Origin: a gamma proteobacterium HTCC2207
GTDB taxonomy: Bacteria > Pseudomonadota > Gammaproteobacteria > Pseudomonadales > Porticoccaceae
Length of the DNA stretch: 40,554 nt
Assembly: GCA_905182855.1 (NCBI GenBank)
Contig: CAJJDA010000001.1
Span: forward strand, 1 to 40,554
Direction: 5' to 3'
In this document: piece after piece, positions 16,239 to 40,413 of the stretch
Layout: every line of letters starts with the position of its first letter
How positions within the stretch are numbered: the first letter of the stretch is position 1
Made by a program: the position numbers and the translations under genes
The notes under the pieces: generated by a model
Told to the model about the DNA's origin: nothing
Seen by the model: only the letters and a program-made list of their open reading frames with translations
The model's database searches: none

Positions 16239-16899
16239 CTGAAAAACCGTCCTGAAATTCTGGGGCAACTAAAATTTGCATCTTTTGGAGCGCTAAGCGC
16301 ACTCGTGACTTGACCGTACCTAATGGCAACCCAAGCTCTTGGGAAGCCTCGGCATGGGATTTACCTTCCAAGTAGACCTTGCGGAGAATCTCAGCCTGCT
16401 CCCTCGGTAAATTGGCTAGACAGGCTTGAATCTTTTCCTCTCTATGCTTCTGGCTCAGAAGCGAGACAGGCGTATCCTCGTCTGGTTCATGCCAATAATC
16501 TTCGTTCTCAAGAGGAAGATGCTGGGTGTTGCTCTTGCGCCGCAGCATATCAATTCGACAGTTGCGCGCAACAGTGTATATCCAAGTGGTAGCAGAGGCT
16601 TTCGCAGGATTGTACCCAGCTGCCTTGTTCCATACTTTGATCATTACTTCTTGCACTAGATCGTCACCTAGACCGGGAATCCAACCTTCGTGGCGGCTGG
16701 CCTGCGCAAAACTTTTCAGTAACGGGCCGAAATGTCTAAACAGTTTGGCAAAGGCTGGGCGATCACGTGATTCACCGACCTTAACTAGCAACAGACTCCA
16801 CTGGTCTGACCGCTTTTCTGTCAGCATTAATACGGCACTGCGACCGATCTTCTCTATTTGTGTGTCCACCAATTTAATTTTCTTCTGCACCATGATCAC
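16231..16899 (-). CDS. ECF RNA polymerase sigma factor (RpoE/ChrR-group)
   Basis: Region 2 has DDLVQEVMIKVWNKAAGYNPAK followed by WIYTVARNCRIDMLRR; region 4 has LPREQAEILRKVYLEGKSHAEASQELGLPLGTVKSR, a helix-turn-helix that reads the -35 element. The length (222) fits the family. It is followed by a ChrR-like anti-sigma gene overlapping by 8 bases, so this is the ECF11-like photo-oxidative stress pair. Upstream lies a candidate ECF promoter (16925-16951). In this organism its targets beyond itself cannot be seen in the window. Confidence 0.92.
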   Translation of the reverse strand: MIMVQKKIKLVDTQIEKIGRSAVLMLTEKRSDQWSLLLVKVGESRDRPAFAKLFRHFGPLLKSFAQASRHEGWIPGLGDDLVQEVMIKVWNKAAGYNPAKASATTWIYTVARNCRIDMLRRKSNTQHLPLENEDYWHEPDEDTPVSLLSQKHREEKIQACLANLPREQAEILRKVYLEGKSHAEASQELGLPLGTVKSRVRLALQKMQILVAPEFQDGFSDE

Positions 16900-18713: not shown

Positions 18714-18761
18714 TCACTGGTGCTACAGTTACTCCAACAATTCTCTAAGGATGACAGGACC

Positions 18762-20074
18762 ATGATGGCCGAACTATACAAACAGCATATCGCGGAGAAA
18801 ATGTCTCGCTTTCAGAGAATTCTGGAAGCCACGGGTTATCGGGAAATATTGATTGGCTCCGGTGAGACCAAAATGCAATTCCAAGATGACATGGCTTATG
18901 CTTTTAAAGCTAATCCTTACTTTCGTGAATGGGTTCCCCTCGCGACTAGAGCTGACTGCTATTTACAGATTATCGCAGGTGTCAGCAAACCAAAATTATT
19001 TTTACTTGCCGTTGAAGATGTTTGGCATACCGCGCCGGAGAGTCTCCCTACTGGCTTTGATCAGGCTTTTAATATTATTGAATATGGCAGCATTGAAGAG
19101 CTTAAAAAACATCTAGGCAGCGCAGCGGCGGTCTTTATTAATGAGACTAATGCTCTGGGCACGGTGGCAGAAAACTGGAATACATTGGCGGTTCTACACC
19201 AAATTGATTATCAGCGGCGCGGTAAAACGGCCTATGAACAGGAATGTGTCCGCGAGGCTAATCGGCGAGCAGTGCCTGCGCATCGAGCAGCTCAACAGCC
19301 TCTTATGGCGGCGCATCGACGTACCGATTTCGGCCGCCTATCTGGCCGCCTGTGATTGCCGTGAGAGCGAAATGCCCTACGGCATAATCGCCGGCGTCAA
19401 CGAACATGCAGCAGTACTGCACCACCATAATTTATTTAAGCAGCCGCAGACCCCGCGCAGTTTTCTAATTGATGCGGGAGTGGAGAGTCTATGGCTACGC
19501 CTCAGATATTACACGGACCTATGCCTATGATCCGGGCTGTGATTTTGCCGCCATGATTGAGGCGATGGACAAGACGCAGCTCGCGCTTTGCGCAGAGGGC
19601 GGTATTGGTAAAAGTCCAGTGGATATTCATGCGCTGTCTGCGTATAAGATCGCTGAAGTGCTGATTGAATTTGATGTGCTGCAACTGTCGGCTGAAGAAG
19701 CGGTTGCCAAAGATATTGCTGGATCTTTTTACCCCCATGGTTTGGGCCATCACCTTGGCTGTAATGTGCATGATAAAGGTAGTCAGCTAGCCAATGCTCA
19801 GGGCGCCATTCTCCCAAGGTCAGAAAAATACCCTAAGCTCCGCTCTGGCGCGAAGATGGTTGCCAACCAGATTCATACCGTAGAGCCGGGGCTGTATTTT
19901 ATTCCGGTCCTTCTGGATAAACTCAAATCTGGCAAGCACGCTAAAGCTATTAACTGGTCGCGGATCGATGAATTTGTCCCCTACGGTGGAATCCGTATCG
20001 AGGATAATATAGTGGTGCATGTCGATAGCACACTAGAAAACCTCACCCGCGATGCTTTCAGAAGAATAAACTAA
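18762..20074 (+). pseudogene. pepQ: Xaa-Pro dipeptidase (prolidase, M24 family), frame-disrupted
   Basis: PepQ-like enzymes split Xaa-Pro dipeptides with two divalent metals. From ATG 18762 (MMAELYKQHIAEKMSRFQR, the usual beginning) the first frame reads to HRAAQQ near 19298. The next frame gives SYGGASTY to 19324, a third gives ISAAYLAACDCRESEMPYG to about 19485, and the last gives VYGYASDITRTYA to the stop. So three frame changes are needed: a base missing near 19298, one missing near 19325, one extra near 19486. All metal residues are kept (IDAG, ASDITRTY, HGLGHHLG, TVEPG, RIEDN). After repair it would have about 438 residues, the normal length. Pseudogene or clustered sequence errors. Confidence 0.85.
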
Positions 20075-20565: not shown

Positions 20566-20735
20566 GGGTGTTAAGGCGTGCTTATCGGCATAGGTCAACT
20601 TAAGAAATATTGAGTGCCCATGGATTAATGAGTAAACTATTGAGTGACAACCTAGGCACGCAGGATGATCGTTATAAGTTCCTGTCCGTCGACAGTTTTA
20701 ATGAACTGAGTCATTAACCAATGCGGAGAGAGTCG
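20566..20735. other. Gap before the SDR gene
   Basis: A 29-codon frame (20628-20717, MSKLLSDNLGTQDDRYKF...) is present but I see no support for it as a gene. No clear promoter or repeat was found. Confidence 0.3.
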
Positions 20736-21530
20736 ATGAGCGGCACAGGCAGAATTTCCAATAAAATAGCATTTGTAACCGGTGGCGCATCAGGCATTGG
20801 TGAGGGAATTGTAAAAATGCTTCTTGCTGAAGGTGCGAAGGTAGCCTTCACTGATATTCAGGTAGAAGCGGGCAACAAACTCGCCCAGACGCTGGGAAAT
20901 AACGCCTTGTTTATTGAGCAGGATGTACGTCTTGACCAAGATTGGAAGAAGGCCGTTGAGCTGACATCAGCGACCTTTGGTCCGATAAATATCCTCGTGC
21001 AGAGCGCGGGTATTTCCTACCCGGGAAATGTCGAGCAGGTCAGTCTTGATGACTGGCGTGATCATATGGCCGTTAACGGTGAAGGTGTGTTACTAGGTTG
21101 TCAGCATGCTATAGCTGTAATGAAAAGTAATGGTGGCGGTTCCATTATTAATATCTCCAGCATCGAAAGTATTCGACCGGGCGCGCCTTTCGTTGCCTAC
21201 GCAGCAAGTAAAGCTGCCGTCGATGCGATCACTAAAACGACAGCGTTACATTGTGCTGAGCATAATTATGGAATTCGTTGTAATTCAATTCACCCTGCCG
21301 CGATCAACACGCCGATTTTTGATGAGTATGTCCAAAAATCGTCCGATCCGGAAAAACAAATGGCTATCTATGCCGGCATGCAGCCTTTGAATCGCGTTGG
21401 CACGGTTGATGAAGTGGCCTATACGGTGTTATTTTTGGCCTCTGATGAATCGAGCTTTTTTACCGGTCATCAGATGTATGTTGATGGTGGTGCTCTCACC
21501 AAACGTCAACCGGCGTTTACATCGCTATGA
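20736..21530 (+). CDS. Short-chain dehydrogenase/reductase
   Basis: NAD(P)-dependent oxidoreductase of the classical SDR type, 264 residues from ATG 20736 (GGAG at 20725-20728; a start at 20721 would lie on the ribosome site). It has VTGGASGIGEG near residue 16, QSAGIS, NISSIES with the catalytic serine, and YAASKAAVDA with Tyr-x3-Lys. The protein ends VDGGALTKRQPAFTSL. Its last few codons overlap, in another frame, the 3' fragment of an asparaginase-like gene, which suggests that the C-terminus was formed at a rearrangement junction. The substrate is unknown. Confidence 0.9.
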   Translation: MSGTGRISNKIAFVTGGASGIGEGIVKMLLAEGAKVAFTDIQVEAGNKLAQTLGNNALFIEQDVRLDQDWKKAVELTSATFGPINILVQSAGISYPGNVEQVSLDDWRDHMAVNGEGVLLGCQHAIAVMKSNGGGSIINISSIESIRPGAPFVAYAASKAAVDAITKTTALHCAEHNYGIRCNSIHPAAINTPIFDEYVQKSSDPEKQMAIYAGMQPLNRVGTVDEVAYTVLFLASDESSFFTGHQMYVDGGALTKRQPAFTSL

Positions 21531-22517: not shown

Positions 22518-24186
22518 TTATTCCTTGAGTATGGCAGTCCTAGCGTCCTGCCTTATCTGTAATTTAAAGATTTTTCCTGAGGCGATTCGGGGCAAGCTGT
22601 CATTACTCTGGCGAATATAACGCGGTATTTTAAATTTTGCTAATCGTGTTGCTAAGAACTCTCGCAGTTCTGCTTCATTAATCTGGCTATCGCAAAATAT
22701 TGTAGCGGCGACCTCTTCGCCCAGACGCTCGTCGGGTACCGAATAAACCGCCGCTTCTCTTATCTGGGGATGGTCCAGCAGAGCCGCTTCTACTTCGCCA
22801 CAGCCAATGTTCTCACCACCACGAATGACCACATCTTTAATACGATCGACGATAAATAGGTAGCCCTCTTCGTCTAGGTAGCCAAGATCACCAGTCTTAA
22901 ACCAGCCATCAACATGTGCGGCCGCAGTTGCCTCGGGATTGTTCCAGTAGCCTCGAAACATAGAGGTGCCACGAATCTGAATTTCGCCCTGTGTGCCAGC
23001 GGGCAATGCATGGCCCTCTTTACTGGCTATTCGGATATCTAGTACTGCGGCCGGCAGCCCCGAACTACCGGGGCGCTCAAGATAGTCTTCCCCGGCTATG
23101 GCCGCACCTATCGCGTTGGTCTCCGTCATTCCCCAGCCGGTATTAGGCATGGCGTTGGCAAATGCGACGTCTATATCACGCACCTGTTCCGGCGCCCTTG
23201 CGGCGCCACCACCGCCGACCATAACGAGACTGGACAGATTATGGCCACCCTTTTTTGCATGGTGTGTTAGGTCAGCTGTCATGGCGGCAGGTGCCGTAAA
23301 GCCAGTAATGTGTTCCTGCTCGATGAGGGCTGCGGCCTGAGTAGGGTCCCATTTACGGGTTAGAACCAACTTTGTCTGAGAGCGAAAAGCGGACAAAAAG
23401 ACGGCATGGCACCCAGACACATGGAACATTGGCACAGCGAGTAACGCTGCCGGCTGTTCCACGGGGGGCTCTATAGGAATGCCTTTGGTTAGGAGCCAAG
23501 TATAGATCGCGATCTCCCAACTTAATAGTGCGCTAATCACAGCTCTGTTACTGGAAACCTCGCGCGTCGGTCGGCCCGTCGAGCCGGAGGTGTAGAGAAT
23601 TATAACGTCGTCCATGGCAGAGATTGGTATCTCGGGCATACTCGCGCCTGTATGTCGTTGCTGAAGATCTTCCCAGCGAGCCAAAGTACTGTCGCTATCA
23701 CCTCGCACAACAAGCGTTGGGTATGATCGCTCAAGATTGGTCTTTGCTAGCAGATCGCATCGCTCTTGGTCGGCAATCAGCAGGCTACAGTCGCTGTCCT
23801 GCAATCCGTAGTAAATTTCATCAGCCTGCCACAATGAATTCATAGCGACGACGATAGCGCCCACCGAGGTAATTGCCTCAAAGGCTATAATCCATTCAGG
23901 ATAATTGCGCAGACAGATTGCTACACGGTCGCCTTTTTGAATACTATAGTCTGTCATCAAGTCCAGCCCCGAAGGCGCTGGCAGCCTCCCAGATATTGAG
24001 AAAGCTATAGCGCTCCTGTTCAAAGACGACGAAGGTTTTGTCGCTCAGATTCTGCTGGTACAGGTCTCGAAGACTTTGCGGAGCATATTTGTAATCACGA
24101 CAGGACCGACCATAAACGTCCACTTCGATCATCTCTAAGGGCTGCCCTGGTGCTGAGACCATGGCGAAGGCTTCTAGTCGATTCAT
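22518..24186 (-). pseudogene. Acyl-CoA synthetase / AMP-dependent ligase, frameshifted near the N-terminus
   Basis: Adenylate-forming enzyme that would activate a carboxylic acid to its CoA thioester. The N-terminus (24186 to about 23960) reads MNRLEAFAMVSAPGQPLEM to ASAFGAGL and then a stop. From about 23957 another frame continues MTDYSIQKGDRVAICLRNYPEWI to the end, so one base is extra (or two missing) near 23958. The repaired protein has about 555 residues. The P-loop-like A3 motif is YTSGSTGRPTREV; the usual Lys-Gly after Pro is replaced. The A8 region WFKTGDLGYLDEEGY...DVVIRGGENI and the A10 lysine PRIASGKIFK are normal. It stands divergent to the Dabb gene at the head of the oxygenase cluster. 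Confidence 0.85.
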
Positions 24187-24423: not shown

Positions 24424-24443
24424 GGTAGTAGTCTAGTACTACC
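24424..24443. promoter_or_regulatory. Cluster operator copy 1 (GGTAGTA-N6-TACTACC)
   Basis: A perfect 7-base inverted repeat with spacer GTCTAG, 104 bases upstream of the Dabb gene start. Two further copies with other spacers lie at 24913 and 31536, so the conserved part is exactly the two arms. This indicates a dimeric repressor or activator site. Confidence 0.75.
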
Positions 24444-24547
24444 AAGATTGATGCGGGTCTACTAGCATGCAGAGCGCCACCTAACACACGGAGTTTATCA
24501 GTGAAGCCATTCTATGCTCACAGCGAGCCCAGTAAGGAGTTTGAAAA

Positions 24548-24847
24548 ATGATTAAGCACATTGTATTTTGGAAATTCAAAGAGGTTGATGCAAAGACCAA
24601 GCAGTCCTACGCTAACGAAGTGAAGCAGCGTCTTGAGGCACTGTCGGGTCGAATTCCAGAATTACTCGCCATAGAGGTGGGTATCAACTATAACGCCACA
24701 TCCAATGCAGCAGACATAGCCCTGTATACCGAATTTGCGACCGAGGCGGACCTTCAGGCCTATCAGGAGCATCCTGAACATATGGCCTTAGTGCCATTTA
24801 TTGGCAGTATTACTGATGAGCGCAGAGTGGTCGATTACGAACTCTAA
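24548..24847 (+). CDS. Dabb-domain protein (stress-responsive alpha/beta barrel)
   Basis: A 99-residue protein with the ferredoxin-like Dabb fold: MIKHIVFWKFKEVDAKTKQ at the start, LLAIEVGINYN in the middle, and YQEHPEHMALVPFIG near the end. These proteins dimerise; some bind small organic acids or act as cyclases or decarboxylases, the role here is unknown. AAGGAG lies 8 bases before the ATG. It is the first gene after cluster operator 1 and is followed by a 205-base gap holding operator 2. Confidence 0.88.
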   Translation: MIKHIVFWKFKEVDAKTKQSYANEVKQRLEALSGRIPELLAIEVGINYNATSNAADIALYTEFATEADLQAYQEHPEHMALVPFIGSITDERRVVDYEL

Positions 24848-24912
24848 ATGATCATGGGCCAAGACCTCTGGGGTTTATTGGTCGAGTTGTTTCTGTGCTA
24901 GTTAAATTAACA

Positions 24913-24932
24913 GGTAGTAGCTATCTACTACC
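24913..24932. promoter_or_regulatory. Cluster operator copy 2 (GGTAGTA-N6-TACTACC)
   Basis: Same arms as copy 1 with spacer GCTATC, 120 bases upstream of the glyoxalase-fold gene. The gap between the two genes has no other gene. Confidence 0.75.
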
Positions 24933-25052
24933 ACAAAAAGTCGCTCGCGATTAGCATAGACGATATTGATAATCTTCCCGCTGATCATTGATTACATAAC
25001 GTAGTTGGGGGCTAGAAGATAAACTATTACGGACAGAAAAAAGGGCTTAGTT

Positions 25053-25553
25053 TTGACAACCAGCGGTTACAGATTAAATCATACGATGATAAGAGTGAGG
25101 GACCCAGAGGTGTCTTTGGCGTTTTACCAAGAGGTCTTAGGCATGCGTTTGTTGGAGCGGTTTGCGTTCGAGACGATGCAATTCTCACTTTACTTTCTCG
25201 GTTTTGATGACTCCTTAGAGGGCGACATGCCGATGGATCGGTCCGAGCGTATTGTCTGGCTAGCCCGCCAGGCGGGCGTACTTGAATTGACCCATAATTG
25301 GGGTACTGAATCCGATACAGAATTTTCGGGTTATCACAATGGTAATAGTACCCCGCAGGGCTTTGGACATATTGGCATTACGGTGCCGGACGTATATGCT
25401 GCCTGCGAACGTTTTGACGAGCTCAAGATCGAATTTGTTAAGCGGCCCGATGATGGTGGGATGAAGGGGTTGGCCTTTATCAAAGATCCGGATGGCTATT
25501 GGGTGGAAATATTTTCTCCCACAGGGCTTAGATCGATAATTATGGGAGACTAG
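25053..25553 (+). CDS. Glyoxalase I-like VOC-superfamily protein
   Basis: A 166-residue vicinal-oxygen-chelate fold resembling lactoylglutathione lyase. The metal ligands can be read as His in [10 protein letters not shown], Glu in [12 protein letters not shown], His in [11 protein letters not shown] and Glu in GYWVEIFSP. It may be true GloA (methylglyoxal detoxification) or a relative adapted to the cluster substrate; the presence in the operon favours the second or a protective role. Start is TTG 25053 with AAGGG 7 bases upstream. It begins the VOC - SnoaL - Rieske unit. Confidence 0.9.
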
Positions 25554-25643
25554 TAGGGCTGTCCTAGCGATTATTATGAGCTCGCTAGGATTGTTGGCGT
25601 TGAGGGTTTAGCAGCGCCCCGTTGGTGAATTGAGGAGAATGAG

Positions 25644-26204
25644 ATGGAGCAGTTACAGAGTATTTTACAGCGTTTGGATAAACTTGAGTCAAAGGAGGCT
25701 ATTCGCGGCTTAGTGACAGCCTATGCGATTGCTTGTGACGAACATGATATTCCAAGATTGGCGGACCTATTTTCTGTTGATGCAGTGTTTTGTTCGCCCA
25801 ATGGCGCCATGGTATCCAACGGTCGTGATGCGATCCGCGATATGTTTAATACGATACTTAAAACACGCGGCCCAGGGTTCCACTGGACTCATGACGTTCA
25901 TGCACACATTGATCCTGAAAACCCCGATCGTGCCAGCGGTCTAGTTTATGGTCATGCCGAGACCACGCCCCATGGCGTTGTCAGCTTGGCAGCCTTCAAG
26001 TACAAAGATGAATACCTACGTGAAGAGGGGATCTGGCGTTTTAGTCGCCGTGAAATCAGTTTTTTCTACTATATGCCTATTACAAAATATGCGGAGGGCC
26101 TTAATCAAGCTGACCGCGTCTACATCGATGGGGACTGGCACAAGGCCGATTTCCCAGAGACTCTCGACAGTTGGGTTCGCTTTGCGGGAGGCGATATCTC
26201 TTGA
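25644..26204 (+). CDS. SnoaL-like (NTF2-fold) protein
   Basis: A 186-residue NTF2-like protein with LESKEAIRGLVTAYAIACDEHDIPRLADLFSVDAVF at the start, the common signature of SnoaL_4 domains. In oxygenase clusters such proteins serve as small subunits, dehydratases or isomerases. Here it may be the partner (beta-like) of the Rieske protein, since the two genes overlap. GAGGAG stands upstream of the ATG. Its stop overlaps the TTG start of the next gene. Confidence 0.88.
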   Translation: MEQLQSILQRLDKLESKEAIRGLVTAYAIACDEHDIPRLADLFSVDAVFCSPNGAMVSNGRDAIRDMFNTILKTRGPGFHWTHDVHAHIDPENPDRASGLVYGHAETTPHGVVSLAAFKYKDEYLREEGIWRFSRREISFFYYMPITKYAEGLNQADRVYIDGDWHKADFPETLDSWVRFAGGDIS

Positions 26205-27385
26205 ACAAAGATGCCATGTCGCTAGTGCGAAGAGCGCTTCGGCATTTCAAGCAGAGCACCACAGATCAGGCCGACAGTACTATGGAGATTTCGTTGTCAG
26301 CCTATCGAGACGAAACACGCTATGGGCTCGAAATAGAGCGTATTTTTAAGCACTTGCCTATAGCCGTGGCCCTGAGCATCGAACTGCCTGAATCGGGCAG
26401 CTATAGAGCGATGACAGTGATGGGCGTGCCTCTCCTGCTAGTGCGGGGAGAAGACCTCAAAGTGCGGGCGATGCTTAATGTTTGTCGTCACCGAGGAGCT
26501 AAACTCTGCGAAGAGGGCGCCGGCAAGTCACGCTTGATTGTCTGTCCCTACCATGCCTGGAGTTATAACTATGAAGGCGCACTCGTGGGTCGCTACGGCG
26601 GCGATACCTTTGGTGAAATAGCCAGTGACAGCTACGGTTTAACCGGGCTGCACTGTGAGGAAAAAGCCGGCATTATTTGGGCATCTCTGACGCCAGGTGA
26701 TGTGTTTGATGTGGATCATTGGCTGGGCGACTTCGGCGAGGAATTAGAGACGCTGGATCTCAACAACTGGCATCTATATGAGCAGCGCGACCTGGCTGGT
26801 CCGGGCTGGAAAGTCACTATGGATGGCTATCTTGAGGCCTATCATCATCAGCTTGTACACCGTGAAACAGTGGGTAAATACACTGTCGGTAACCTGCTGG
26901 TTCTGGATACCTATGGGCCCCATCAACGTCTCACATTCGGACGTCGGACGTTGGGCGAACTGATTGACCAGCCGCAGGACGAATGGCAGCCGATGGAGCA
27001 TATTCGTCTTATTCACTCAGGATTTCCCAATCTTTCAATTTCAGGAATCCTCGGCGATCACTGTTTAGTCAGTCAGGTTTTCCCTGGAGAGACCAGTGAA
27101 ACAACGATTACCAGACAGACAGTTTTGGTAGCGAAGAAGCCAGTCACAGATGCAGAAATTGAGGCGACTGAGACGTTCAGTGCACTGACGCTGAAAGCGG
27201 TTAGAGATGAGGATTATCGAGTGGGTAACTCCATTCAATCCGGTCTCAAATCTGCCGCCAATGAGTATTTTATCTTTGGTCGCAATGAGCCAGCGGTGCA
27301 GAACTATCACCAGGCTATTGAAGAGTTTATGGCGATGGAGAGCAATCAGTGGGAGCGGCCTAAGAAGGATTCTGGAGGTCGCTAA
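26201..27385 (+). CDS. Rieske [2Fe-2S] aromatic-ring-hydroxylating oxygenase, alpha-type subunit
   Basis: Non-heme iron oxygenase, 394 residues from TTG 26201. I chose this start because GGGAGG lies 9 bases upstream and the TTGA overlaps the SnoaL stop; ATG 26216 is an alternative. The Rieske cluster is CRHRGAKLC... with CPYHAW (C-x-H-x17-C-x2-H, residues about 95-118). The mononuclear-iron site is DGYLEAYHHQLVH (about 208-220). Electrons would come from the ferredoxin and reductase at 33236-34798. The substrate is unknown. It is the last gene of the plus-strand unit, converging on the minus-strand SDR gene 12 bases away. Confidence 0.93.
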   Translation: MNKDAMSLVRRALRHFKQSTTDQADSTMEISLSAYRDETRYGLEIERIFKHLPIAVALSIELPESGSYRAMTVMGVPLLLVRGEDLKVRAMLNVCRHRGAKLCEEGAGKSRLIVCPYHAWSYNYEGALVGRYGGDTFGEIASDSYGLTGLHCEEKAGIIWASLTPGDVFDVDHWLGDFGEELETLDLNNWHLYEQRDLAGPGWKVTMDGYLEAYHHQLVHRETVGKYTVGNLLVLDTYGPHQRLTFGRRTLGELIDQPQDEWQPMEHIRLIHSGFPNLSISGILGDHCLVSQVFPGETSETTITRQTVLVAKKPVTDAEIEATETFSALTLKAVRDEDYRVGNSIQSGLKSAANEYFIFGRNEPAVQNYHQAIEEFMAMESNQWERPKKDSGGR

Positions 27386-27397
27386 TGATCGCCCGAG

Positions 27398-28141
27398 CTA
27401 CTCTCTGGGCAGGTGGGCAAAGACACTATTGGTGACACCACCATCGATGACCAGCTCATGACCCGAAATATACTGTGCACCCTGTGAGTCTAAAAACAAT
27501 ACCGCATTAGTCACATCGCAGGCTTGCCCCAACGCTCGCAAGGGCACGCCACTACTGCGTTTTTCTCGAACCTTTGGGTTTTTAAAGATCTCCTTTGACA
27601 TCCCCGCGTCGATAAATCCCGGCGCGATAGCATTGACGCGTATTCCCAGCGGTCCGCATTCAATTGACATTAGTTGCGTCAGTGAACTGAGCGCCGCTTT
27701 CGTCGGGGCATAGAGACCTACGCCGGGTGCAGGATGGATACCATTGACTGAGGTGATGTTAATAATGTGGCCGGAGCCCCTGTCGATCATACCGGTGACG
27801 GCGATACGCGAACAGATGGTTGCGCCAAGCAGGTTAACCTCTAAAACCTGGCGAAAATCTTCAATCGGCTGCTCATGTAATGGGCCAAAGCGGACAATAC
27901 CGGCATTGTTGATAAGCAGATCAGGGGCCTCACCAAACTGATTGAAGGCGGCCTGAACAGCGTCAGGATCACTAACGTTGGCGACTAAAGGAACTGTGCT
28001 ACCGCCAATACGAGCAGCGGTTTCCTCGGTCTGCTGTTGGTTCAGATCCATGATCCCAACATGATAGCCTGCGGCGACTAAAGCCTCCGCCATATCGGCC
28101 CCTAGCCCCGCGGCAGCTCCAGTTACAATTGCTCTTCGCAT
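27398..28141 (-). CDS. Short-chain dehydrogenase/reductase
   Basis: Classical SDR, 247 residues from ATG 28141 (MRRAIVTGAAAGLGADM); the longer start at 28159 would lie over the GAGGGA ribosome site. It has NNAGIV, ITSVNG with the catalytic serine, and YAPTKAALSS with Tyr-x3-Lys. It is the last gene of the four-gene minus-strand operon, probably oxidising an alcohol or dihydrodiol-type intermediate made by the Rieske oxygenase; this is inference from context. Confidence 0.9.
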   Translation of the reverse strand: MRRAIVTGAAAGLGADMAEALVAAGYHVGIMDLNQQQTEETAARIGGSTVPLVANVSDPDAVQAAFNQFGEAPDLLINNAGIVRFGPLHEQPIEDFRQVLEVNLLGATICSRIAVTGMIDRGSGHIINITSVNGIHPAPGVGLYAPTKAALSSLTQLMSIECGPLGIRVNAIAPGFIDAGMSKEIFKNPKVREKRSSGVPLRALGQACDVTNAVLFLDSQGAQYISGHELVIDGGVTNSVFAHLPRE

Positions 28142-28167
28142 TATCAGTCCCTCAGGCATATTGCCAA

Positions 28168-29169
28168 TTAATTAAAGCGTAGAAGTCGTCGGGCATTATC
28201 GGCCAGGCAATTGAGCCAGACGTCGTCACCGTGGATATGGTGTTGATCCCAGCCGGCAAAATTGGTCCCCAGTACTAGATTATCTTTGCCCAAGATAGTA
28301 ACTACAAAATCGAGAACCCGTTGATCATGAATATGAGCATCAAACCAAAGTTTGCTCAGGTAGGACTCGAAGGCCCCATCTTTACGCAAATTCTCACTGG
28401 CCCAGGGTCGTCGATTACCGGCTTCATTGAGTCGGCCAATTAACATGGGTATGGCGCCGCCGGCATGACTGAAGCAAACACTTAGCGTCGGATGCCGGTC
28501 AAGTACCCCACCAAAGATTAGAGTGGCGACAGCGATGGTCTCCTGCGCGGCGAACCCGGTCAAAATATCTAGGTCGAAACGATTTAGATTGCTATCCCCT
28601 TTAGGACCATCAATGCCGGCAGGGGCAGGATGGATAAATAGAGGCACGTCGAGGGCCACCAGCTTTTCATAGAATGGGTCCATCTCTGGGCTATCTAAAG
28701 GGCGGCCAATATCCGTACCAATGTAGGCACCTATCAGTCCTAATTCTAAAATGGCCCGCTCTAATTCTTCGCAGGCGGCGCTGATATCTTGCATGGGCAG
28801 AGCAGCAAGTCCTGCTAAGCGATGCGGAGCGTGAGCAACGCGCAATTGCAGTTCATCATTATGGCGCTGACAAAAGTTAATCGCTTGGGGCGATTCAATA
28901 AAATGGAAATAGGTTAAAGGATTGGGAGACAGTACCTGAAAATCTATGCCTGCCTTGTCCATTGCCTTAAGGCGCATATCCATATCCATAAAGGCGCTAT
29001 TTTCGTAACTAACACCCTGTAAGACATAATCGCCAATACGGAACCAGGGTTGGCCATCGGCATTGTGGCCAATCTCAGGCCCATAGGCCCCAGCACTGTG
29101 CATACTTTCGGACAGGACAATATGCGCATGCACATCAATGGTTTTGGCTTGCAGGATTGAATCTTTCAT
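28168..29169 (-). CDS. Amidohydrolase of the ACMSD / TIM-barrel decarboxylase type
   Basis: A 333-residue metal-dependent TIM-barrel protein of amidohydrolase family 2. It shows DVHAHI (His-x-His), LFIHPA and CFSHAGG. The segment where the family has a metal-binding aspartate (like GSDYPF) reads LGTNFAGWDQ, so Asn stands at the Asp position. Members decarboxylate aromatic or unsaturated acids, for example aminocarboxymuconate or carboxyvanillate. With the Rieske and SDR genes around, decarboxylation or hydrolysis of a ring-derived acid is plausible. The gene is 9 bases from its upstream neighbour in the operon. Confidence 0.87.
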   Translation of the reverse strand: MKDSILQAKTIDVHAHIVLSESMHSAGAYGPEIGHNADGQPWFRIGDYVLQGVSYENSAFMDMDMRLKAMDKAGIDFQVLSPNPLTYFHFIESPQAINFCQRHNDELQLRVAHAPHRLAGLAALPMQDISAACEELERAILELGLIGAYIGTDIGRPLDSPEMDPFYEKLVALDVPLFIHPAPAGIDGPKGDSNLNRFDLDILTGFAAQETIAVATLIFGGVLDRHPTLSVCFSHAGGAIPMLIGRLNEAGNRRPWASENLRKDGAFESYLSKLWFDAHIHDQRVLDFVVTILGKDNLVLGTNFAGWDQHHIHGDDVWLNCLADNARRLLRFN

Positions 29170-29177
29170 CAGAGACC

Positions 29178-29966
29178 TTAAAGTGTTTGCGCGCAGCCAC
29201 CGTCAACGGGTATCGCTGCGCCGGTAATATAGCTGGCGGCGGGTGAGGCAAGGAAAAGAGCGACCGCGGCAATTTCTTCTGGCTGCGCCATGCGCTTTAA
29301 GGGAATCATGGCGGTAATGGCATTGGCAATATCCTCAACAGGCACGCCCTCCGCCTTTGCTCGAGCCTCAAGCAGTTGATCGACACGCTGGGTTTTAGTC
29401 CAACCTGTGCAGATAGTGTTAACCAAAATATTATCAGCGGCTAGCTCATTGGACAGTGTTTTGGCCCAGCCCAGTCCCGCTAAACGTAAGCTATTAGATA
29501 ACATCATTCGTGGCATTGGCTGCTTTACTGAATACGATGATAGGTTGATGATACGTCCGTGACCGCTTTTTTTCATGCCGGGTAATACTCGGTTAGTGAC
29601 TCGCACTGCAGATCTCAAGGTCAGATCAAATGCCTGCTCCCAGTGCTCATCTTCCAGAGCGGTATGTTCGCCTGGAGGGGGACCACCAGCGTTATTGACC
29701 AGCACATCGATAGCACCCCAATGAGACTCGATATATTCAATGAGCTTATCGATATCAGCGGTCTGACTAAGGTCAGCGACCTCCGCTAGCACCGGTTGGC
29801 CGGTCAGAGCTTCAAGAGTGATTTTAGCCTGTGCCAGCTGTTCTTCGCCGCGAGCACAGATGGCAACTTTGGCACCTGCCAATTGAAAGGCACAGGCCGT
29901 CGCTAGGCCAAGACCGCTGCTTCCAGCGGTGATTAGTACGCGCTGTTCTTCTGTTTGACCGTTCAT
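29178..29966 (-). CDS. Divergent short-chain dehydrogenase/reductase without the usual Tyr-Lys
   Basis: A 262-residue SDR fold with LITAGSSGLGLATACAF at the start and NNAGGPPPG and LSSYSVKQ in the middle. The place of Tyr-x3-Lys reads MMLSNSLRLAGLGWAKTL, so neither residue is at the normal position. SDR members with this SNSLR variant are known to me only as unassigned proteins. It ends VDGGCAQTL. It lies between the two amidohydrolase genes, 44 and 8 bases from them, so it is part of the operon. Confidence 0.87.
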   Translation of the reverse strand: MNGQTEEQRVLITAGSSGLGLATACAFQLAGAKVAICARGEEQLAQAKITLEALTGQPVLAEVADLSQTADIDKLIEYIESHWGAIDVLVNNAGGPPPGEHTALEDEHWEQAFDLTLRSAVRVTNRVLPGMKKSGHGRIINLSSYSVKQPMPRMMLSNSLRLAGLGWAKTLSNELAADNILVNTICTGWTKTQRVDQLLEARAKAEGVPVEDIANAITAMIPLKRMAQPEEIAAVALFLASPAASYITGAAIPVDGGCAQTL

Positions 29967-30010
29967 AGATTGTCATGTCTCATATTCGTGGATGGCGTAT
30001 TACCGCTAAA

Positions 30011-31342
30011 CTAGGGCCGATGAGCCAATTCATAGGTAAGTACTTCGTCAGCGAATTGACCGGTGCGCCAACTGGGTATGTTCCAGGTATCGGGGATAGG
30101 GCGTTCTAAGTCGATTTTTTTGCCTGATTTAAAGATCGCACGAATATTGTCGCGCTGCCCCATTAAATTGAGATCTTGTTCGAGGTCACCTGCAACTAGC
30201 ACGAGATCGGCAATGTAGCCCGCCTCAATGCAGCCCAGCTCATTCTCTAAACCGAAGATTTTGGCTCCTGCCTCGGTCGCGCAGGCTATCGATTGTAGTG
30301 GCGTCAGCCCCAAATGTTCCGTAAACAGGCCCATCTCCCGATAGTGCCAGTCACCGTAGGGTGTGATGGCGAAACCAGATTCACTGCCACAGAGTAGCGG
30401 TACCCCTGCGTCGTAGGCGCGCCGGAGCATTGCCGCACTCTGGCTAATTTCATTCATAAATACTTTTTGCAGTGCCGGATCAGAGCCCACTTTATGACCG
30501 TAATCTATCAAGTTGGATAGGAATGTAAAGGTGGGTACCAGGGGTACGCATTGATCGACTACCGCCTCAAGCGTTTCCTCATCCATATAAGAAGCGTGAA
30601 GGATCATGTCAAAGCCAGCAAGAGCGGCGTCGCGGATGCTTGAGGTATTGCGGCAATGGCCGGCTACCGGAATTCCTAGAGCATGTGCGGTGTCACAAAC
30701 TAGACGCAGTTCATCTAACGTCCAGGCCTGAATTTCACCGCTACCGTGCATCGGGGTTCTGCGCACTGGAAGACCACTGACATGGACTTTAATCCAGTCG
30801 CAGCCCGACTTAATCTGTCGACGGATTTCTCGCACAATCTCATCAGGAGTCTGAACAATCGCGGCATAGCCTAGTTTCCCCGATTCGGGTAGTAGCCGGC
30901 CAGCGGTACCGCCGACACTAGTGATAAGAGCGTTGCCTCCGGTGGCCATGCGCGGCCCCTCCACCACCCCGCCCTCAATAGCATCTCGAAGGTCGACACC
31001 AACATCAAAAATACAGTCAGCATCAAAAAAGCTGGTAACGCCAGCACGCAATACCTTTTGGGCATTCACTGCAGCAATGACGGTAGCCAGACCGGGGCGT
31101 CGATGAAAAAACAGCTCATCATTAGATTTGGGTTCGTCAAAACTAATATGACAATGGGCGTCGACCAGCCCAGGAATGAGACTACAGCCGGCGCCATCAA
31201 TCTGCTCGGTAGTGTCAGTCGAAAGGCTGTCTGCCTCTGCTCCGAGGGCCGTAATGCGGTCATTGGTAATCAGCACTGATGTGATCGAATGCTGTTCCCG
31301 TGAAATGACTTTGGCATTTTTAATCAGATAAGATGAGTTCAT
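30011..31342 (-). CDS. Amidohydrolase, imidazolonepropionase/dipeptidase-like
   Basis: A 443-residue metal-dependent hydrolase with the composite urease-like fold. It has LVDAHCHISFDEP (His-x-His), WIKVHVSG (candidate carbamoylated lysine), VAGHCRN and LHASYMDEETL (the two further His ligands), and ends with the EAGYIADLVLVAGDL beta-segment. The usual Asp near GTDAG reads LLCGSESG, giving Glu. The family hydrolyses cyclic amides, lactones or dipeptides. It is the first gene of the minus-strand operon and its promoter region is shared with the bicupin gene. Confidence 0.88.
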   Translation of the reverse strand: MNSSYLIKNAKVISREQHSITSVLITNDRITALGAEADSLSTDTTEQIDGAGCSLIPGLVDAHCHISFDEPKSNDELFFHRRPGLATVIAAVNAQKVLRAGVTSFFDADCIFDVGVDLRDAIEGGVVEGPRMATGGNALITSVGGTAGRLLPESGKLGYAAIVQTPDEIVREIRRQIKSGCDWIKVHVSGLPVRRTPMHGSGEIQAWTLDELRLVCDTAHALGIPVAGHCRNTSSIRDAALAGFDMILHASYMDEETLEAVVDQCVPLVPTFTFLSNLIDYGHKVGSDPALQKVFMNEISQSAAMLRRAYDAGVPLLCGSESGFAITPYGDWHYREMGLFTEHLGLTPLQSIACATEAGAKIFGLENELGCIEAGYIADLVLVAGDLEQDLNLMGQRDNIRAIFKSGKKIDLERPIPDTWNIPSWRTGQFADEVLTYELAHRP

Positions 31343-31632
31343 ATTTTGGTCTCGCCTGAGGTCTTTAATTGAGTTTTTATTACCCTACAGGTTATCGGGG
31401 TCAAGCCGTGCATATTTGACAGGGATACTGAGTTGCCCGTCAGTCTGCGCCTGTGCAGCATCGTTTTTTTTGGGTCTAACATTACCAACAGTTTGAACCG
31501 CCGTGCGGATACAGTATCGCACCGGCAATTGTTTAGGTAGTATCCATATACTACCTGATTGGACTGCATTTGAACTAGGCTTAATGTACAGTCAAATTCT
31601 AATAATAAACTAATATTCACGCGGGGTATGTT
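31343..31632. promoter_or_regulatory. Divergent promoter region between the amidohydrolase operon and the bicupin gene
   Basis: No gene is seen in these 290 bases. They hold operator 3 (31536-31555) and, just upstream, an imperfect dyad centred at about 31512 (GCGGATAC-A-GTATCGCAC). A weak -35-like TTGAAC is present at 31570-31575. Both units would respond to the same regulator. Confidence 0.6.
31536..31555. promoter_or_regulatory. Cluster operator copy 3 (GGTAGTA-N6-TACTACC)
   Basis: Arms identical to copies 1 and 2, spacer TCCATA; here one further base pairs on each side (A...T). It is 77 bases before the bicupin start and 194 before the amidohydrolase start. Confidence 0.75.
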
Positions 31633-32715
31633 ATGAGTCAGTCGGCCGAACAATTTAATCCAGACTTCCAACCTACAGGCATAGAGGGTGGCGTAGATAC
31701 TAATCTATTGCCCTGGATCGCTATTGAGGCGGTCGATGGTATGTCGATCAAGACCATGAGAGCCAGTGGTGAAACGGGTGCGTTCTCCGTTATTATTAAA
31801 CTCGATAGTGGCACTACCATGCCTGCCGCTGTTTATCTGAGTGGCATGGACATGCTGCTACTATCGGGCAGCATCCGTTACACTCAGGGTGACCAAGTAA
31901 GCCTGCTCACTCCTGGTACCTGGGGATATATTTCCGCCAACTCCAAGGTTGCTGGAATACATGCGGAAACAGAGTCTGAACTGTTAGTCAATTTCTACGG
32001 AGCCGTGGCCTTTTTAGATCGCCAGCATGCGGTGTCAACTATTCTCACCAGCCTAGACATTATGCGCAAGGCTCTGGAACATGGCGTGGCGCTAGTGCCT
32101 AGCACCTTGGCGGGCTGCATACAGGACCGACCTGAGCCCTTGAAAAATGCGTCTGAGCCCCTAGCAATTTTTGCCACCGACGCTAGGAAGCTGGTGATTG
32201 CTGAAGCAGATAGTGCCGACGCAGGCGCCGGTTATAGTCACCCGCATTTTGTGGATACTAAGCAGGTACCATGGGGAATAATTCCAACTCTGCCAAATAT
32301 TGGACTGAAAATTTTACGAGTCAGTGAGGACAACGGCACGGTATCTTTGATCGTTCGACACTCTGGCGTTGCTGGGGGACACACCCACCTAGGCGCCAGC
32401 GATTTCTTGGTTTTGAACGGCTATATTGGCTATCGAGCAGGGCCACCGGAGGGCTATGGCCCTGGAGTATGGTTTTTTGAGCCCTCTGGCGCGCGACATG
32501 AAGCCACACAGAGTGTTGGTACGGACGACTTGATTTATACGGCGAATGTTTATGGGCCACTAGTGTTTGATGAAGGTAAGGGTACGCCCATAACGGCGGT
32601 GCTGTCTTGGATTGAGTATAAGGCGTTGGCCGAAGCATTTGGTGTGAATCTGGTTTCAAGTGCCAATCCCAATGACTCGAGCCTGTTGGCGTCAGCGCCC
32701 CTGCAAGGGAGCTAA
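31633..32715 (+). CDS. Bicupin protein related to ChrR/dihydroxyacetophenone-dioxygenase-type cupins
   Basis: A 360-residue protein with two cupin domains (about 25-155 and 200-330). The second has GGHTHLGASDFLVLNG and SGARHEATQ, a full metal site. In the first the matching stretch is AVYLSGMDMLLLSG, so the two early His are gone, though a late His remains (VAGIHAET). Each domain begins with a similar PWIAIEAVDGMSIKTMR / PWGIIPTLPNIGLKILR pattern, showing internal duplication. It may be a ring or diketone-cleaving dioxygenase. Its start follows operator 3. Confidence 0.85.
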   Translation: MSQSAEQFNPDFQPTGIEGGVDTNLLPWIAIEAVDGMSIKTMRASGETGAFSVIIKLDSGTTMPAAVYLSGMDMLLLSGSIRYTQGDQVSLLTPGTWGYISANSKVAGIHAETESELLVNFYGAVAFLDRQHAVSTILTSLDIMRKALEHGVALVPSTLAGCIQDRPEPLKNASEPLAIFATDARKLVIAEADSADAGAGYSHPHFVDTKQVPWGIIPTLPNIGLKILRVSEDNGTVSLIVRHSGVAGGHTHLGASDFLVLNGYIGYRAGPPEGYGPGVWFFEPSGARHEATQSVGTDDLIYTANVYGPLVFDEGKGTPITAVLSWIEYKALAEAFGVNLVSSANPNDSSLLASAPLQGS

Positions 32716-32837: not shown

Positions 32838-33158
32838 ATGTGCGAAGTATTTTTGGACGGAGATGCCGCTATGTTCGAAAAAAGTCCCGCTATAGCCGCA
32901 TCGAGGGGTATGGCACGAGTGTCTGTATCAAACCAGTATTTTGGCGATTCTTAGACCATATTGCGGATTAGCAGAACACCCAGCTCTCTCAGTTTGTGTC
33001 GAGACCTTTACAATGAAGCCCTGATCAAAATGGGCGATGCAACCAACCTCAGTTCGGTTCTGCGCGTGTCCTGCATTAATTGCGTGCATCAGCAGCAGAG
33101 CCTAGCTCCCGAGAATGCAATGAGATTCATTGCGAAATTTACAGTCCGCTGGTGCTAA
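32838..33158 (+). pseudogene. Degraded ribbon-helix-helix protein gene
   Basis: ATG 32838 begins MCEVFLDGDAAMFEKSP, the typical N-terminus of a small family (COG4321-like) of predicted DNA-binding proteins. Then the frame changes to RIEGYGTSVCIKPVFWRFL and DHIAD, followed by an in-frame TAG where Gln is expected (ADQQNTQLSQFVSR). Another frame change gives LYNEALIKMGDATNLSSVLRV and the end at 33158. At least two indels and one nonsense change are present. The family is about 100 residues. A repressor is a possible original role. Confidence 0.75.
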
Positions 33159-36475: not shown

Positions 36476-39400
36476 ATGAGCCTATCCAACAGCCAGACCG
36501 CTGAAGACATTAATGCCTTGGGTGCTAGTCAGCCTAAAAAGAAGGGTATCCCTTTACGATTTGTCACTGCAGCGAGCCTTTTCGATGGCCATGATGCCGC
36601 GATCAATATTATGCGTCGTATACTTCAGGGCGCCGGCGTTGAAGTTATCCATCTAGCCCATAATCGCTCTGTTGCTGAGGTGGTCGAAACTGCGCTACAA
36701 GAAGACGCTCAGGGTATTGCTATCAGTTCCTATCAGGGTGGCCATGTCGAATACTTTAAGTATGCCGTTGATCTTTTAAAAGAAGCTGGTGCGGAGCATA
36801 TTAAAATCTTTGGCGGTGGCGGTGGCGTGATAGTGCCTGAGGAAATCAAAGAGCTTGAGGCCTATGGAGTCGAGCGTATTTATTCATCCTACGACGGCCA
36901 AAATTTGGGTCTGGTAGGTATGATTGACGATATGATCGAGCGCTGTTCACTGGGTTCTTATGAGGACGTAACAGTGCAGTCGCCAGAATTGGCAGGTGAG
37001 GGCGGTGAGCGAAAATTGGCTCGCTTAATCACCGCGATTGAGCGTGGCGAGTTAACAGGACAGCAGAAAAAGTCGCTTAATGAGCAGGCGCAGTTTCTCA
37101 TCAACAAGGTGCCTGTTTTGGGTATTACGGGCACTGGTGGTGCCGGCAAGTCGTCTCTGACTGATGAGCTGATTCGTCGCTTCAGACAAGACAGTGACGA
37201 TGAATTAAAAATTGCCATATTGGCGATTGATCCAACCCGCAGAAAAACTGGCGGTGCGCTGCTGGGCGATCGCATTCGCATGAATGCCATTTATCACCCC
37301 AATGTGTTTATGCGTTCAATTGGTACCCGTGGCGCCCAGGGCGAGGTGCCTGACGCTCTGGTAGAAATTGTTAGCGCTATGCGCCTGGGTGGTTTTGATT
37401 TAGTGGTCGTAGAAACGCCGGGTATTGGCCAAGGCGACGCCGGTATTGTGCCCTATGTCGATATCCCGATTTATGTCATGACCCCAGAATTTGGTGCACA
37501 GAGTCAGCTGGAAAAGATCGACATGCTCGATTATGCCGAGCTGACAATTATTAATAAGTTTGATCGCAAAGGCAGTGATGACGCCTACCGTGATGTGTCG
37601 AAGCAGGTGCAACGCAATCGCGAGGCCTGGACGCAAATGCCTGATGAGATGCCCGTTTTCGGCACTATCGCCTCACGCTTCAATGACGACGGTGTGACGG
37701 GAGCCTATCAGACCTTGCTTGGTTTGCTCCAGGCGAGAGGGTTGCGCACCTTTGAACAGCATCTCCCCAAGGTCAGCTGTAAAACCCCCTCGGTAAAAAC
37801 GGTGGTTGTCCCGGCGGAACGGCAACGTTATCTAGCAGAAATTTCTGCCGGTGTCCGCAGCTATCATCAACAGGTGACAGTGCAGGCTACGCTAGCGCGA
37901 GAACAGCAGCAACTCGCTGCTACACAGCGAATGCTGACCGATGGCGGCAGTCAAGCGCCCGAGGCCATCGAAGGCTTGATTGCCGAGCGCAAGCAGGCCA
38001 TGGATATCCGTGCCAGTCAGTTACTCGCTCGTTGGCCCGAGATGGTCGAGTCTTATTCCGGTGATGAGAAAATTGATGTCCTGCCCAACGGCAAAGAAGT
38101 GGTCACTAAGCTAAACACCGTCTCGCTGTCAGGCAATAAAATTTCCCGCGTGTCCCTGCCAAGATATGAGGACCACGGTGAACTGGTTAAATGGTTGATG
38201 CTGGAAAATCTCCCCGGCGAGTTTCCCTATACAGCCGGTGTATTTCCGTTTAAGCGTGAGGGCGAAGATCCAGCACGTATGTTTGCCGGTGAGGGCGACC
38301 CCTTTAAAACGAATCGCCGGTTTAAAGCGCTGTCTGAACACAGTGATGCCAAGCGTCTCTCTACTGCGTTTGATTCGGTCACACTCTATGGCTGGGATCC
38401 CCATGAGCGGCCAGATATCTATGGCAAGGTGGGCAATGCAGGGGTTTCAATCTGCACTCTAGACGACATGAAAGCCCTCTATGATGGCTTCGACCTGTCC
38501 AGTCCAACTACCTCAGTGTCGATGACCATTAACGGTCCCGCACCGACTATCTTGGCGATGTTTCTGAATACGGCCATTGACCAGCAGGTTGATCGATTTG
38601 TTACTGAGCACAGCCGCGAACCAAAAGCTGCTGAGTACGAAACCCTGCGCAGCAACACCTTAAAACATGTGCGCGGTACAGTTCAGGCAGATATTCTGAA
38701 AGAAGATCAAGGTCAAAACACCTGTATCTTTTCAACAGAGTTTAGTCTGCGCATGATGGGTGATATGCAGCAGTACTTTATTGATCAACAGATCCGCAAC
38801 TTCTACTCAGTCTCGATCTCTGGGTATCATATTGCCGAGGCGGGAGCCAATCCGATCTCGCAGCTTGCCTTTACGCTTTCCAACGGCTTTACCTTTGTTG
38901 AAGCCTATCTGGCTCGCGGTATGAATATTGACGACTTCGCTCCTAATCTATCGTTCTTTTTCTCCAATGGTATGGACCCAGAGTACACCGTGATGGGTCG
39001 AGTAGCTCGGCGCATTTGGGCCGTATCTATGCGTGATCGCTATGGTGCTAACCCACGCAGCCAGAAGCTAAAATATCATATCCAGACGTCAGGCCGCTCT
39101 TTGCATGCGCAGGAGATGAACTTCAATGATATTCGTACGACACTGCAAGCTCTAATTGCTATTTATGATAACTGTAATAGCCTGCACACCAATGCCTATG
39201 ATGAAGCTATTACCACACCCACTGAAGAATCTGTGCGCAGAGCTCTGGCTATTCAGCTGATTATTAATCAGGAATGGGGTTTGGCGAAAAACGAAAATCC
39301 CAGTCAGGGCGCGTTTATTATTGACGAGTTAACCGATCTTGTTGAAGCCGCAGTCCTGCAGGAATTCGAGAAGATCTCTGATCGGGGTGGCGTTTTGGGG

Positions 39401-39769
39401 GCTATGGAAACAGGCTATCAGCGGGGCAAGATTCAGGAAGAATCACTGTACTATGAGCACAAAAAACACGATGGCTCATTTCCCATTGTGGGTGTGAATA
39501 CGTTCCTCAATGAAAACGAGCAAGAGACTGTAGAGATTGAGTTAGCTAGGTCGACAGATGAGGAGAAGCAGAGCCAAATTAAGCGCTTGCGGGAATTTCA
39601 AGGCATCCACACCGATGAGTCTGCCATTATGTTGAAGCGGCTTCAGGATACGGTAAGCGAAGGAGGCAATGGTTTTGAGGTGTTAATGGAAGCGGTTCGC
39701 TGCTGTTCATTGGGCCAAATTACTAATGCGCTCTTTGACGTAGGTGGCCAGTATCGTCGAAATATGTAA
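36476..39769 (+). CDS. icmF: Fused isobutyryl-CoA mutase (IcmF type)
   Basis: Adenosylcobalamin-dependent acyl-CoA mutase fused with its G-protein chaperone, 1097 residues. N-terminus (about 25-155): cobalamin-binding domain, [17 protein letters not shown] with the cobalt-ligating His. Middle (about 195-430): MeaI-type GTPase, [24 protein letters not shown] and NKFDRKG. C-terminus (from about 560): mutase barrel, [33 protein letters not shown] and [16 protein letters not shown]. These enzymes interconvert isobutyryl- and n-butyryl-CoA, some also pivalyl- or isovaleryl-CoA. Intact over 3.3 kb. A TetR gene follows 26 bases later. Confidence 0.96.
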
Positions 39770-39795
39770 TCACTGATCTACTGAAGAGTTTACAC

Positions 39796-40413
39796 ATGGC
39801 TAAAGCCCTGCGACTAACCCAGGTCGAACGCAAAGAAATCTCCGACGCCAAAATGCTTGAGGCGGCGGTTGAGCTTATTGTCGAACGGGGTACCGGACAG
39901 GCTACATTGAAAGATGTGGGCGAGAAGGCGGGATATTCCAGAGGTCTCGCGGGTTACAGATTTGGCAATAAAGAGGGCCTTTTTGATTTTGTACTGAGGT
40001 CGGTTGGCGATGAATGGCTAGCTGAGCTGACGCTTGTCACTAAAAACAAAACGGGCTATGACGCCATTGCGGCTGCGCTTGACGCGCATATCCAATTTTG
40101 CGAAGACGCGCCCAAACATGTAGAGGCTTTTTACCGTCTATGGTTTGAAGCGCTGACCCCAGAATCGAAGTTGAAACCGGTTATATTAGGTATCCATAAG
40201 CGCCGTCGTGCCGATGTGATTCGCTGGATAGAGCAGGGTGTTGGAGAGGGCTCGGTAGCTGGAACCATTGATGTTGAACTAGTTGCCGACCATTTCACTG
40301 CGTCAGTGAGCGGTATCGTTTACCACTGGATGAGTGACCCCGATAATCTCGACGAGATGCGTTCTTTGCACAGTGGCTTAAAGCAGGTTGTCGGGGCGAT
40401 GCTAGCTCGCTAG
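39796..40413 (+). CDS. TetR-family transcriptional regulator
   Basis: A 205-residue TetR/AcrR protein. The N-terminal helix-turn-helix is AAVELIVERGTGQATLKDVGEKAGYSRGLAGYRFGNKEGLF (residues about 24-66); the C-terminal part is a helical ligand domain. It is the likely cotranscribed regulator of the mutase and could bind an acyl-CoA. Whether it also reads the palindromes at 24221, 24424, 24913 or 31536 is open. It ends about 140 bases before the window edge. Confidence 0.92.
   Translation: MAKALRLTQVERKEISDAKMLEAAVELIVERGTGQATLKDVGEKAGYSRGLAGYRFGNKEGLFDFVLRSVGDEWLAELTLVTKNKTGYDAIAAALDAHIQFCEDAPKHVEAFYRLWFEALTPESKLKPVILGIHKRRRADVIRWIEQGVGEGSVAGTIDVELVADHFTASVSGIVYHWMSDPDNLDEMRSLHSGLKQVVGAMLAR

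Follow-up and report, generated by a model that had tools for sequence, protein, structure and literature searches.

We analysed a stretch of 40,554 nucleotides from the gamma proteobacterium HTCC2207 (assembly GCA_905182855.1, contig CAJJDA010000001.1), in the following termed the window, which carries a Rieske oxygenase gene cluster together with three copies of the 20-bp palindrome GGTAGTA-N6-TACTACC. The palindromes lie between the genes for a CoA ligase and a Dabb protein, upstream of a glyoxalase I gene and between the bicupin and amidohydrolase units (Table 1). An earlier note on this DNA had reported three copies with perfect arms and differing spacers, and a pattern search of the window recovered all three exactly where it had placed them; its statement that the window holds no further full copy also stands, as no fourth match was found there at up to two mismatches. 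The gaps to the start of the next open reading frame (ORF) amount to 104 bp (Dabb), 120 bp (glyoxalase I) and 77 bp (bicupin) and reproduce the range of 77-120 bases given before. Distances to the divergent genes are larger, with 193 bp between the third palindrome and the amidohydrolase start and about 238 bp between the first palindrome and the CoA ligase, if the latter starts near 24186 as a second copy of the locus on contig C14 suggests.

The three palindromes are genuine and exceed what chance would produce. At up to three mismatches the window contains five matches, compared to a mean of 0.98 and a maximum of three in shuffled sequences, and none of 100 shuffles reached five. In the whole assembly (1.64 Mb, 76% complete) the exact pattern occurs five times, three times in the window and twice on C14, while the reversed pattern gave no match. 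The genome-wide search that had been proposed thus revealed no scatter over the assembly, and both extra copies precede the same genes as in the window. Allowing two mismatches added one place (on contig C4) and yielded four matches for the reversed control, so that only the exact copies stand out in the assembly.

Contig C14 (L005:1-11814 of genome G000; 11.8 kb) repeats the window from 14.7 to 27 kb, with matched genes being 77-100% identical at the protein level, and probably represents a second strain within the same bin. The SDR gene at 20721-21530 of the window is missing from C14. For the window, 40 ORFs were scanned against Pfam (58 ORFs of at least 90 amino acids were listed), and the C14 proteins were compared with the window proteins by BLAST only. 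Between the Dabb and glyoxalase I genes, 128 of 193 positions are identical in the two copies, and both arms of the second palindrome are unchanged. Around the other C14 palindrome the flank towards Dabb is identical as well, and this copy is therefore no footprint.

Table 1 Coordinates of the described features, given for the window unless a locus (L) is named.
Feature	Position	Strand	Remarks
Palindrome 1	24424..24443	no strand	spacer GTCTAG; between CoA ligase and Dabb genes
Palindrome 2	24913..24932	no strand	spacer GCTATC; upstream of glyoxalase I gene
Palindrome 3	31536..31555	no strand	spacer TCCATA; between bicupin and amidohydrolase units
RHH_4 regulator gene remnant	32838..33158	+	pieces in two frames; the reading frame changes twice and contains one stop
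AMP-binding CoA ligase	22518..24186	-	PF00501 1.2e-57; ORF call covers the gene only from 24023
Dabb (stress-responsive A/B barrel) protein	24548..24847	+	PF07876 1.1e-26
Glyoxalase I (lactoylglutathione lyase), the VOC gene of the earlier note	25053..25553	+	TIGR00068 194 bits, cut-off 120
SnoaL-like protein	25644..26204	+	PF13577 2.2e-21
Rieske oxygenase alpha subunit	26171..27385	+	PF00848 and PF00355
SDR dehydrogenase	27398..28159	-	PF13561
Amidohydrolase (Amidohydro_2)	28168..29169	-	PF04909
SDR dehydrogenase	29178..29966	-	PF13561
Amidohydrolase (Amidohydro_1)	30011..31342	-	PF01979
Bicupin (ChrR cupin-like)	31633..32715	+	PF12973, two stretches; directly behind palindrome 3
L010 palindromes	5372, 6781, 14112		up to 2 mismatches
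L011 palindromes	2044, 2636, 9335		up to 2 mismatches
L012 palindromes	3215, 3805		up to 2 mismatches
L015 palindromes	3084, 3649, 10198		up to 2 mismatches
L031 palindrome	2415		up to 2 mismatches; 6.3-kb contig

Scanning genomes with the Rieske protein returned 25 loci, the closest of them in Porticoccaceae/SAR92-type metagenome-assembled genomes, and five of these loci contain the palindrome (L010, L011, L012, L015 and L031; Table 1). Four of the five (all except L031) encode, between the TonB receptor and the cluster, an intact small protein of the ribbon-helix-helix (RHH) family RHH_4 (PF13467). The L010 and L011 proteins match this family with 77.5 and 73.9 bits (cut-off 25) and have no other Pfam match; scores above the cut-off were also obtained for the genomes of L015 and L012 (G003 and G008). 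Although the gene order is rearranged, the sites stay at unit boundaries, namely before the TonB receptor, between the RHH_4 and SnoaL genes and before glyoxalase I or the bicupin, which bears out the expectation that they are kept in related clusters. In the comparison, which took 23 of the 25 loci and set L033 and L034 (40-41% identity) aside, the site occurred in all four loci with RHH_4 and in only one of the 19 without it, which is L031 (Fisher's test, 5.6e-4; this and the following Fisher values overstate independence, the genomes being related). Three sister loci with the Dabb-GloA-SnoaL-Rieske order of the window (L013, L014 and L016) contain, within the 17 kb that were fetched, neither an RHH_4 gene nor a site at up to two mismatches. 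Sister clusters that lack both the gene and its sites provide a natural control.

The window itself retains a broken RHH_4 gene directly behind the bicupin gene. Its PF13467 match at 32885-33004 is the only one in the assembly (28.7 bits, above the cut-off), and comparison with the intact relatives by tblastn gave E values from 2.5e-15 to 4.1e-17 for the best pieces. The breaks may reflect a loss of regulation in this strain or may be assembly errors, the latter being possible because the window contains several further split genes. The DNA-binding regulators among the 40 scanned ORFs are NrdR (3720), an ECF sigma factor (16231) and a TetR protein (39796, next to a mutase gene), and they were rejected as binders, as none has the palindrome close by. 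The regulator classes suggested in the earlier note (TetR, MarR, GntR, IclR) gave way to RHH_4, which tracks the site in a comparison across genomes covering RHH_4 and RpiR.

The association also shows at the level of the order. The core GTAGTA-N6-TACTAC was found in 26 of 81 RHH_4-positive genomes compared to 13 of 309 negative ones (Fisher's test, 4.7e-11, assuming that the RHH_4 scan and the core scan covered the same 390 genomes); when the genus of the window and genus g28 were removed, 16 of 71 and 9 of 295 genomes remained (4.3e-7). Among RHH_4 loci outside the oxygenase cluster, 24 of 44 carry the palindrome at up to two mismatches, while four permuted patterns gave 0, 0, 0 and 1. In g28 the sites precede glyoxalase I as well as an operon next to RHH_4 with genes for a GMC oxidoreductase and for a protein of weak similarity to gluconate 2-dehydrogenase subunit 3. 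In three genomes of the genus of the window (L065 and L072, both reversed, and L066:290-484), the DNA upstream of RHH_4 codes, near a palindrome, for proteins of 58-64 amino acids with a C-terminal motif like LSDQQYVSLLTLLDEYSAPL. As a separate observation, genomes G123 and G164 (L174-L182) have five core palindromes each. The neighbours are unrelated genes (EAL/GGDEF, Wzi, PEP-CTERM, integrase), and these sites might constitute another regulon under an RHH_4 protein.

The most regular context is that of DJ-1/PfpI genes. It was studied in 44 RHH_4 loci that largely overlap the 44 of the permuted-pattern comparison and differ from them by a few loci. A DJ-1 gene was recognised in 28 of these, and 27 of the 28 have a site (up to three mismatches) 56-123 bp (median 73) before it. 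The rule used missed the DJ-1 genes of L103, in which a site also lies before DJ-1, and of L129, which has a site with three mismatches. Two of the DJ-1 proteins, those of L184 and L185, score above the TIGR01382 cut-off, and solved relatives include DJ-1 homologue D. In these sites the distal GTAGTA is invariant; the proximal half varies at a few positions and ends in an invariant TACC. A matrix built from 26 distinct DJ-1 sites ranks the three palindromes of the window first, at 20.3 bits, with the next match in the window 11 bits lower (9.2) and the best of 20 one-strand shuffles at 15.8 bits.

On plasmids, tblastn with two queries found RHH_4 in 82 and 83 records. Sixteen plasmid loci were examined, 13 from Alphaproteobacteria and one each from Caballeronia, Pseudoalteromonas and Halomonas, two of them without gene tables; 2.5-kb flanks were searched, together with five added promoter regions where the operon head lay outside. 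The 20-bp site (up to two mismatches) is present in seven of the 16, four times in the first flanks and three times in the added promoters, compared to none for four permuted patterns. It precedes DJ-1 in Shinella (L220) and Halomonas (L234), the VOC or SDR gene that comes first in a VOC-GMC row in Thioclava, Pararhizobium and Azospirillum, and lies between RHH_4 and a cytochrome-VOC-GMC row in Methylocella; in Pseudoalteromonas it stands directly behind RHH_4 with no clear promoter. Some alphaproteobacterial VOC-GMC loci carry beside RHH_4 a form that is 3 bp shorter, GGTAGC-N5-GCTACC (L225:2846-2862, L227:2352-2368, L228:2374-2390 and L230:2353-2369), which suggests that the half-sites can be re-spaced; at up to one mismatch it gave four matches against 0, 1 and 0 for controls, with the pattern being drawn from the same loci.

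Which protein, then, reads the palindrome? The sites and their conservation are directly seen here, and the tie to RHH_4 is statistical and appears in several gene contexts. In our best reading, GGTAGTA-N6-TACTACC is the operator of an RHH_4-family transcription factor, and the genes behind it belong to an RHH regulon that responds to dicarbonyls and has captured an oxygenase pathway; we give this a probability of roughly 0.85. The claim of a single-operator regulon over the oxygenase cluster is thereby supported in that it ties the separate units together, but the regulon is not confined to that cluster: glyoxalase I or DJ-1/PfpI recur as neighbours.

RHH proteins read DNA with the beta-ribbon of a dimer, and repression is their usual mode. 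Each 7-bp arm would accordingly be contacted by the beta-ribbon of one dimer, with two dimers per site placed 13 bp apart, and an operator in the promoters would most likely mediate repression, as judged from the position of the sites ahead of start codons and from what is common in the family. Across several groups of proteobacteria the RHH_4-operator pair is located at genes from families that detoxify dicarbonyls. Many genomes of the order have it at DJ-1/PfpI, marine gammaproteobacteria at glyoxalase I, and alphaproteobacterial plasmids at putative operons for VOC proteins and GMC oxidoreductases. In the SAR92-like lineage RHH_4 would have gained control of a cluster with TonB receptor, Rieske oxygenase and amidohydrolase genes, along with a gene for glyoxalase I. 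The signal might be a reactive dicarbonyl or another electrophile that is sensed via a nearly invariant N-terminal cysteine; this proposal builds on the recurrence of glyoxalase I and DJ-1/PfpI as neighbours and on the cysteine at aligned position 2. This residue is present in 44 of 45 RHH_4 proteins, a count favoured by how the starts were picked; the 45 proteins come from 48 loci, three of which yielded none by the rule used. An AlphaFold model of RHH_4, built from four sequences, consists of helices only, with a mean pLDDT of 63, and is too poor to use.

Several observations weigh against this regulon. Besides the relatedness of the genomes mentioned above, the RHH_4 gene of the window is broken, and no intact copy was found in the 76%-complete assembly. 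Within the genus of the window, the site at up to one mismatch occurs in seven of ten RHH_4-positive and two of 40 negative genomes (Fisher's test, 3.8e-5), but the reversed control occurs in seven of 50, and RHH_4 is not close to the G013 site or to one of the two sites in G004; single hits in the genus are therefore at background level, and part of the seven in ten may be background as well. The strict core is missing from 55 of the 81 RHH_4-positive genomes of the order, one half-site is variable in the DJ-1 loci, and the 20-bp form is absent from nine of the 16 plasmid loci, of which four have the 17-bp relative, one a weaker copy and four neither. Not every neighbour fits detoxification: the g28 sites also stand at enolase-superfamily and beta-propeller genes, the sites of genus g26 adjoin EAL/GGDEF, Wzi, PEP-CTERM and integrase genes, none of them a detoxification gene, and the scores of the L132 and L135 VOC proteins do not reach the glyoxalase cut-offs.

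The best-surviving alternative assumes an unlinked regulator of glyoxalase and DJ-1 genes, for which RHH_4 would be merely another target. Since the site stands ahead of DJ-1 in the DJ-1-RHH_4 loci, RHH_4 could indeed be a passenger there. Yet the site goes with RHH_4 in settings that otherwise have little in common (the oxygenase cluster, DJ-1, GMC-VOC and small-protein loci), and the only two DJ-1 genes available without RHH_4, which came from 60 RHH_4-negative genomes and show 67-71% identity, lack a site within four mismatches, so that we regard this explanation as improbable. Binding by an RpiR-family regulator of the RccR/HexR type has a slimmer chance still: RccR half-sites consist of nearly the same letters, with a 15-bp form TGTAGT-N3-ACTACA and a 28-bp form described for Pseudomonas in the excerpted text of PMC5489143, but a spacing of N3, or of N16 as derived from the 28-bp length, instead of the N8 that separates these half-sites in the window would put them on other faces of the helix. 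RpiR (PF01418) is moreover present in 48 of 50 genomes of the genus while the site occurs in nine (up to one mismatch), so that RpiR does not track the site, and the targets named in those excerpts are central carbon genes; on spacing and distribution, RpiR/RccR was rejected as the regulator. That the palindrome, a perfect inverted repeat, is a terminator, a recombination site or another DNA or RNA element shared by chance is scarcely credible, given that arms and N6 spacing are kept while spacers vary, that no run of five T lies within 15 bases of the three window copies on either strand, that the site lies 56-123 bp before start codons in the 27 DJ-1 loci and that no genome of the 390 has more than five core copies.

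Regarding the oxygenase pathway itself, the glyoxalase I of the window matches solved lactoylglutathione lyases with E values of about 4e-63, and ferredoxin and ferredoxin reductase genes were identified as well by Pfam/NCBIfam. In the search for the substrate of the pathway, the NCBIfam matches of the Rieske protein and of one amidohydrolase were below the cut-off, with the GbcA match of the Rieske protein lying far below it. The start-side reading frame of the CoA ligase is interrupted relative to the 554-amino-acid copy on C14; further split or frame-broken genes of the window encode a TRAM/RNA methyltransferase (144-1457) and a PepQ-like peptidase (18720-20074), the latter also in two ORFs on C14. 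Elsewhere in the window, an ECF sigma factor gene adjoins a ChrR-cupin gene (15573-16899, also on C14), resembling a sigma/anti-sigma pair, and a fused B12-dependent mutase with B12-binding, MeaB GTPase and mutase domains is followed by a TetR regulator (36476-40413).

With the proposed RHH_4 regulon, a widespread family of small regulators gains a DNA site and a likely role in physiology. Among the matches listed, our literature searches gave no published function for this family and no description of an RHH_4 regulator or its operator; in their excerpts, PMC10418997 and PMC11987610 concern other RHH and PfpI proteins or name no regulator. For the lineage of the window, the catabolic cluster of an uncultured marine group may have come under the control of a stress regulator that was already present. 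A more far-reaching and rather speculative idea is that RHH_4 forms an unrecognised, Proteobacteria-wide family of cysteine-based sensors of reactive dicarbonyls, whose conserved operator makes glyoxalase I, DJ-1/PfpI and newly captured catabolic oxygenase clusters inducible by glyoxal-type electrophiles, and which might include the missing glyoxal factor of pseudomonads.

Among known systems, the RccR operator shares the TGTAGT/ACTACA half-sites and differs in spacing (N3 or N16), in its RpiR-type regulator and in the genes controlled (excerpts of PMC5489143). A solved RHH_4-like protein, BP1543 (PDB 3kk4), aligns with residues 3-97 of the L010 RHH_4 protein, its MC start included (E 3.3e-16); it is listed as uncharacterized, and the listing gives no DNA site or ligand. 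In P. aeruginosa, according to excerpts of PMC12274486, glyoxal induces the arqI (ABM)-gloA2 operon and the DJ-1 homologue PA4336, and the factor acting on the operon was reported as unidentified in 2025, which makes RHH_4 a concrete candidate. The same excerpts report ABM-glyoxalase and ABM-CoA ligase fusions, which the grouping of Dabb, GloA and CoA ligase in the window resembles, although the Dabb protein and the P. aeruginosa ABM protein belong to different Pfam families. In E. coli, NemR is a cysteine-sensing repressor that controls glyoxalase I from the nemRA-gloA operon, an example of gloA being controlled through a cysteine that senses glyoxals (excerpts of PMC5297802). Common to both systems is a glyoxalase I gene within the regulon, and the cysteine at aligned position 2 of RHH_4 might be a further parallel. 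NemR is of the TetR type, whereas the L010 and L011 proteins match no Pfam family other than RHH_4, and RHH_4, for which a dicarbonyl signal is so far a proposal, also has sites at DJ-1, GMC and oxygenase genes.

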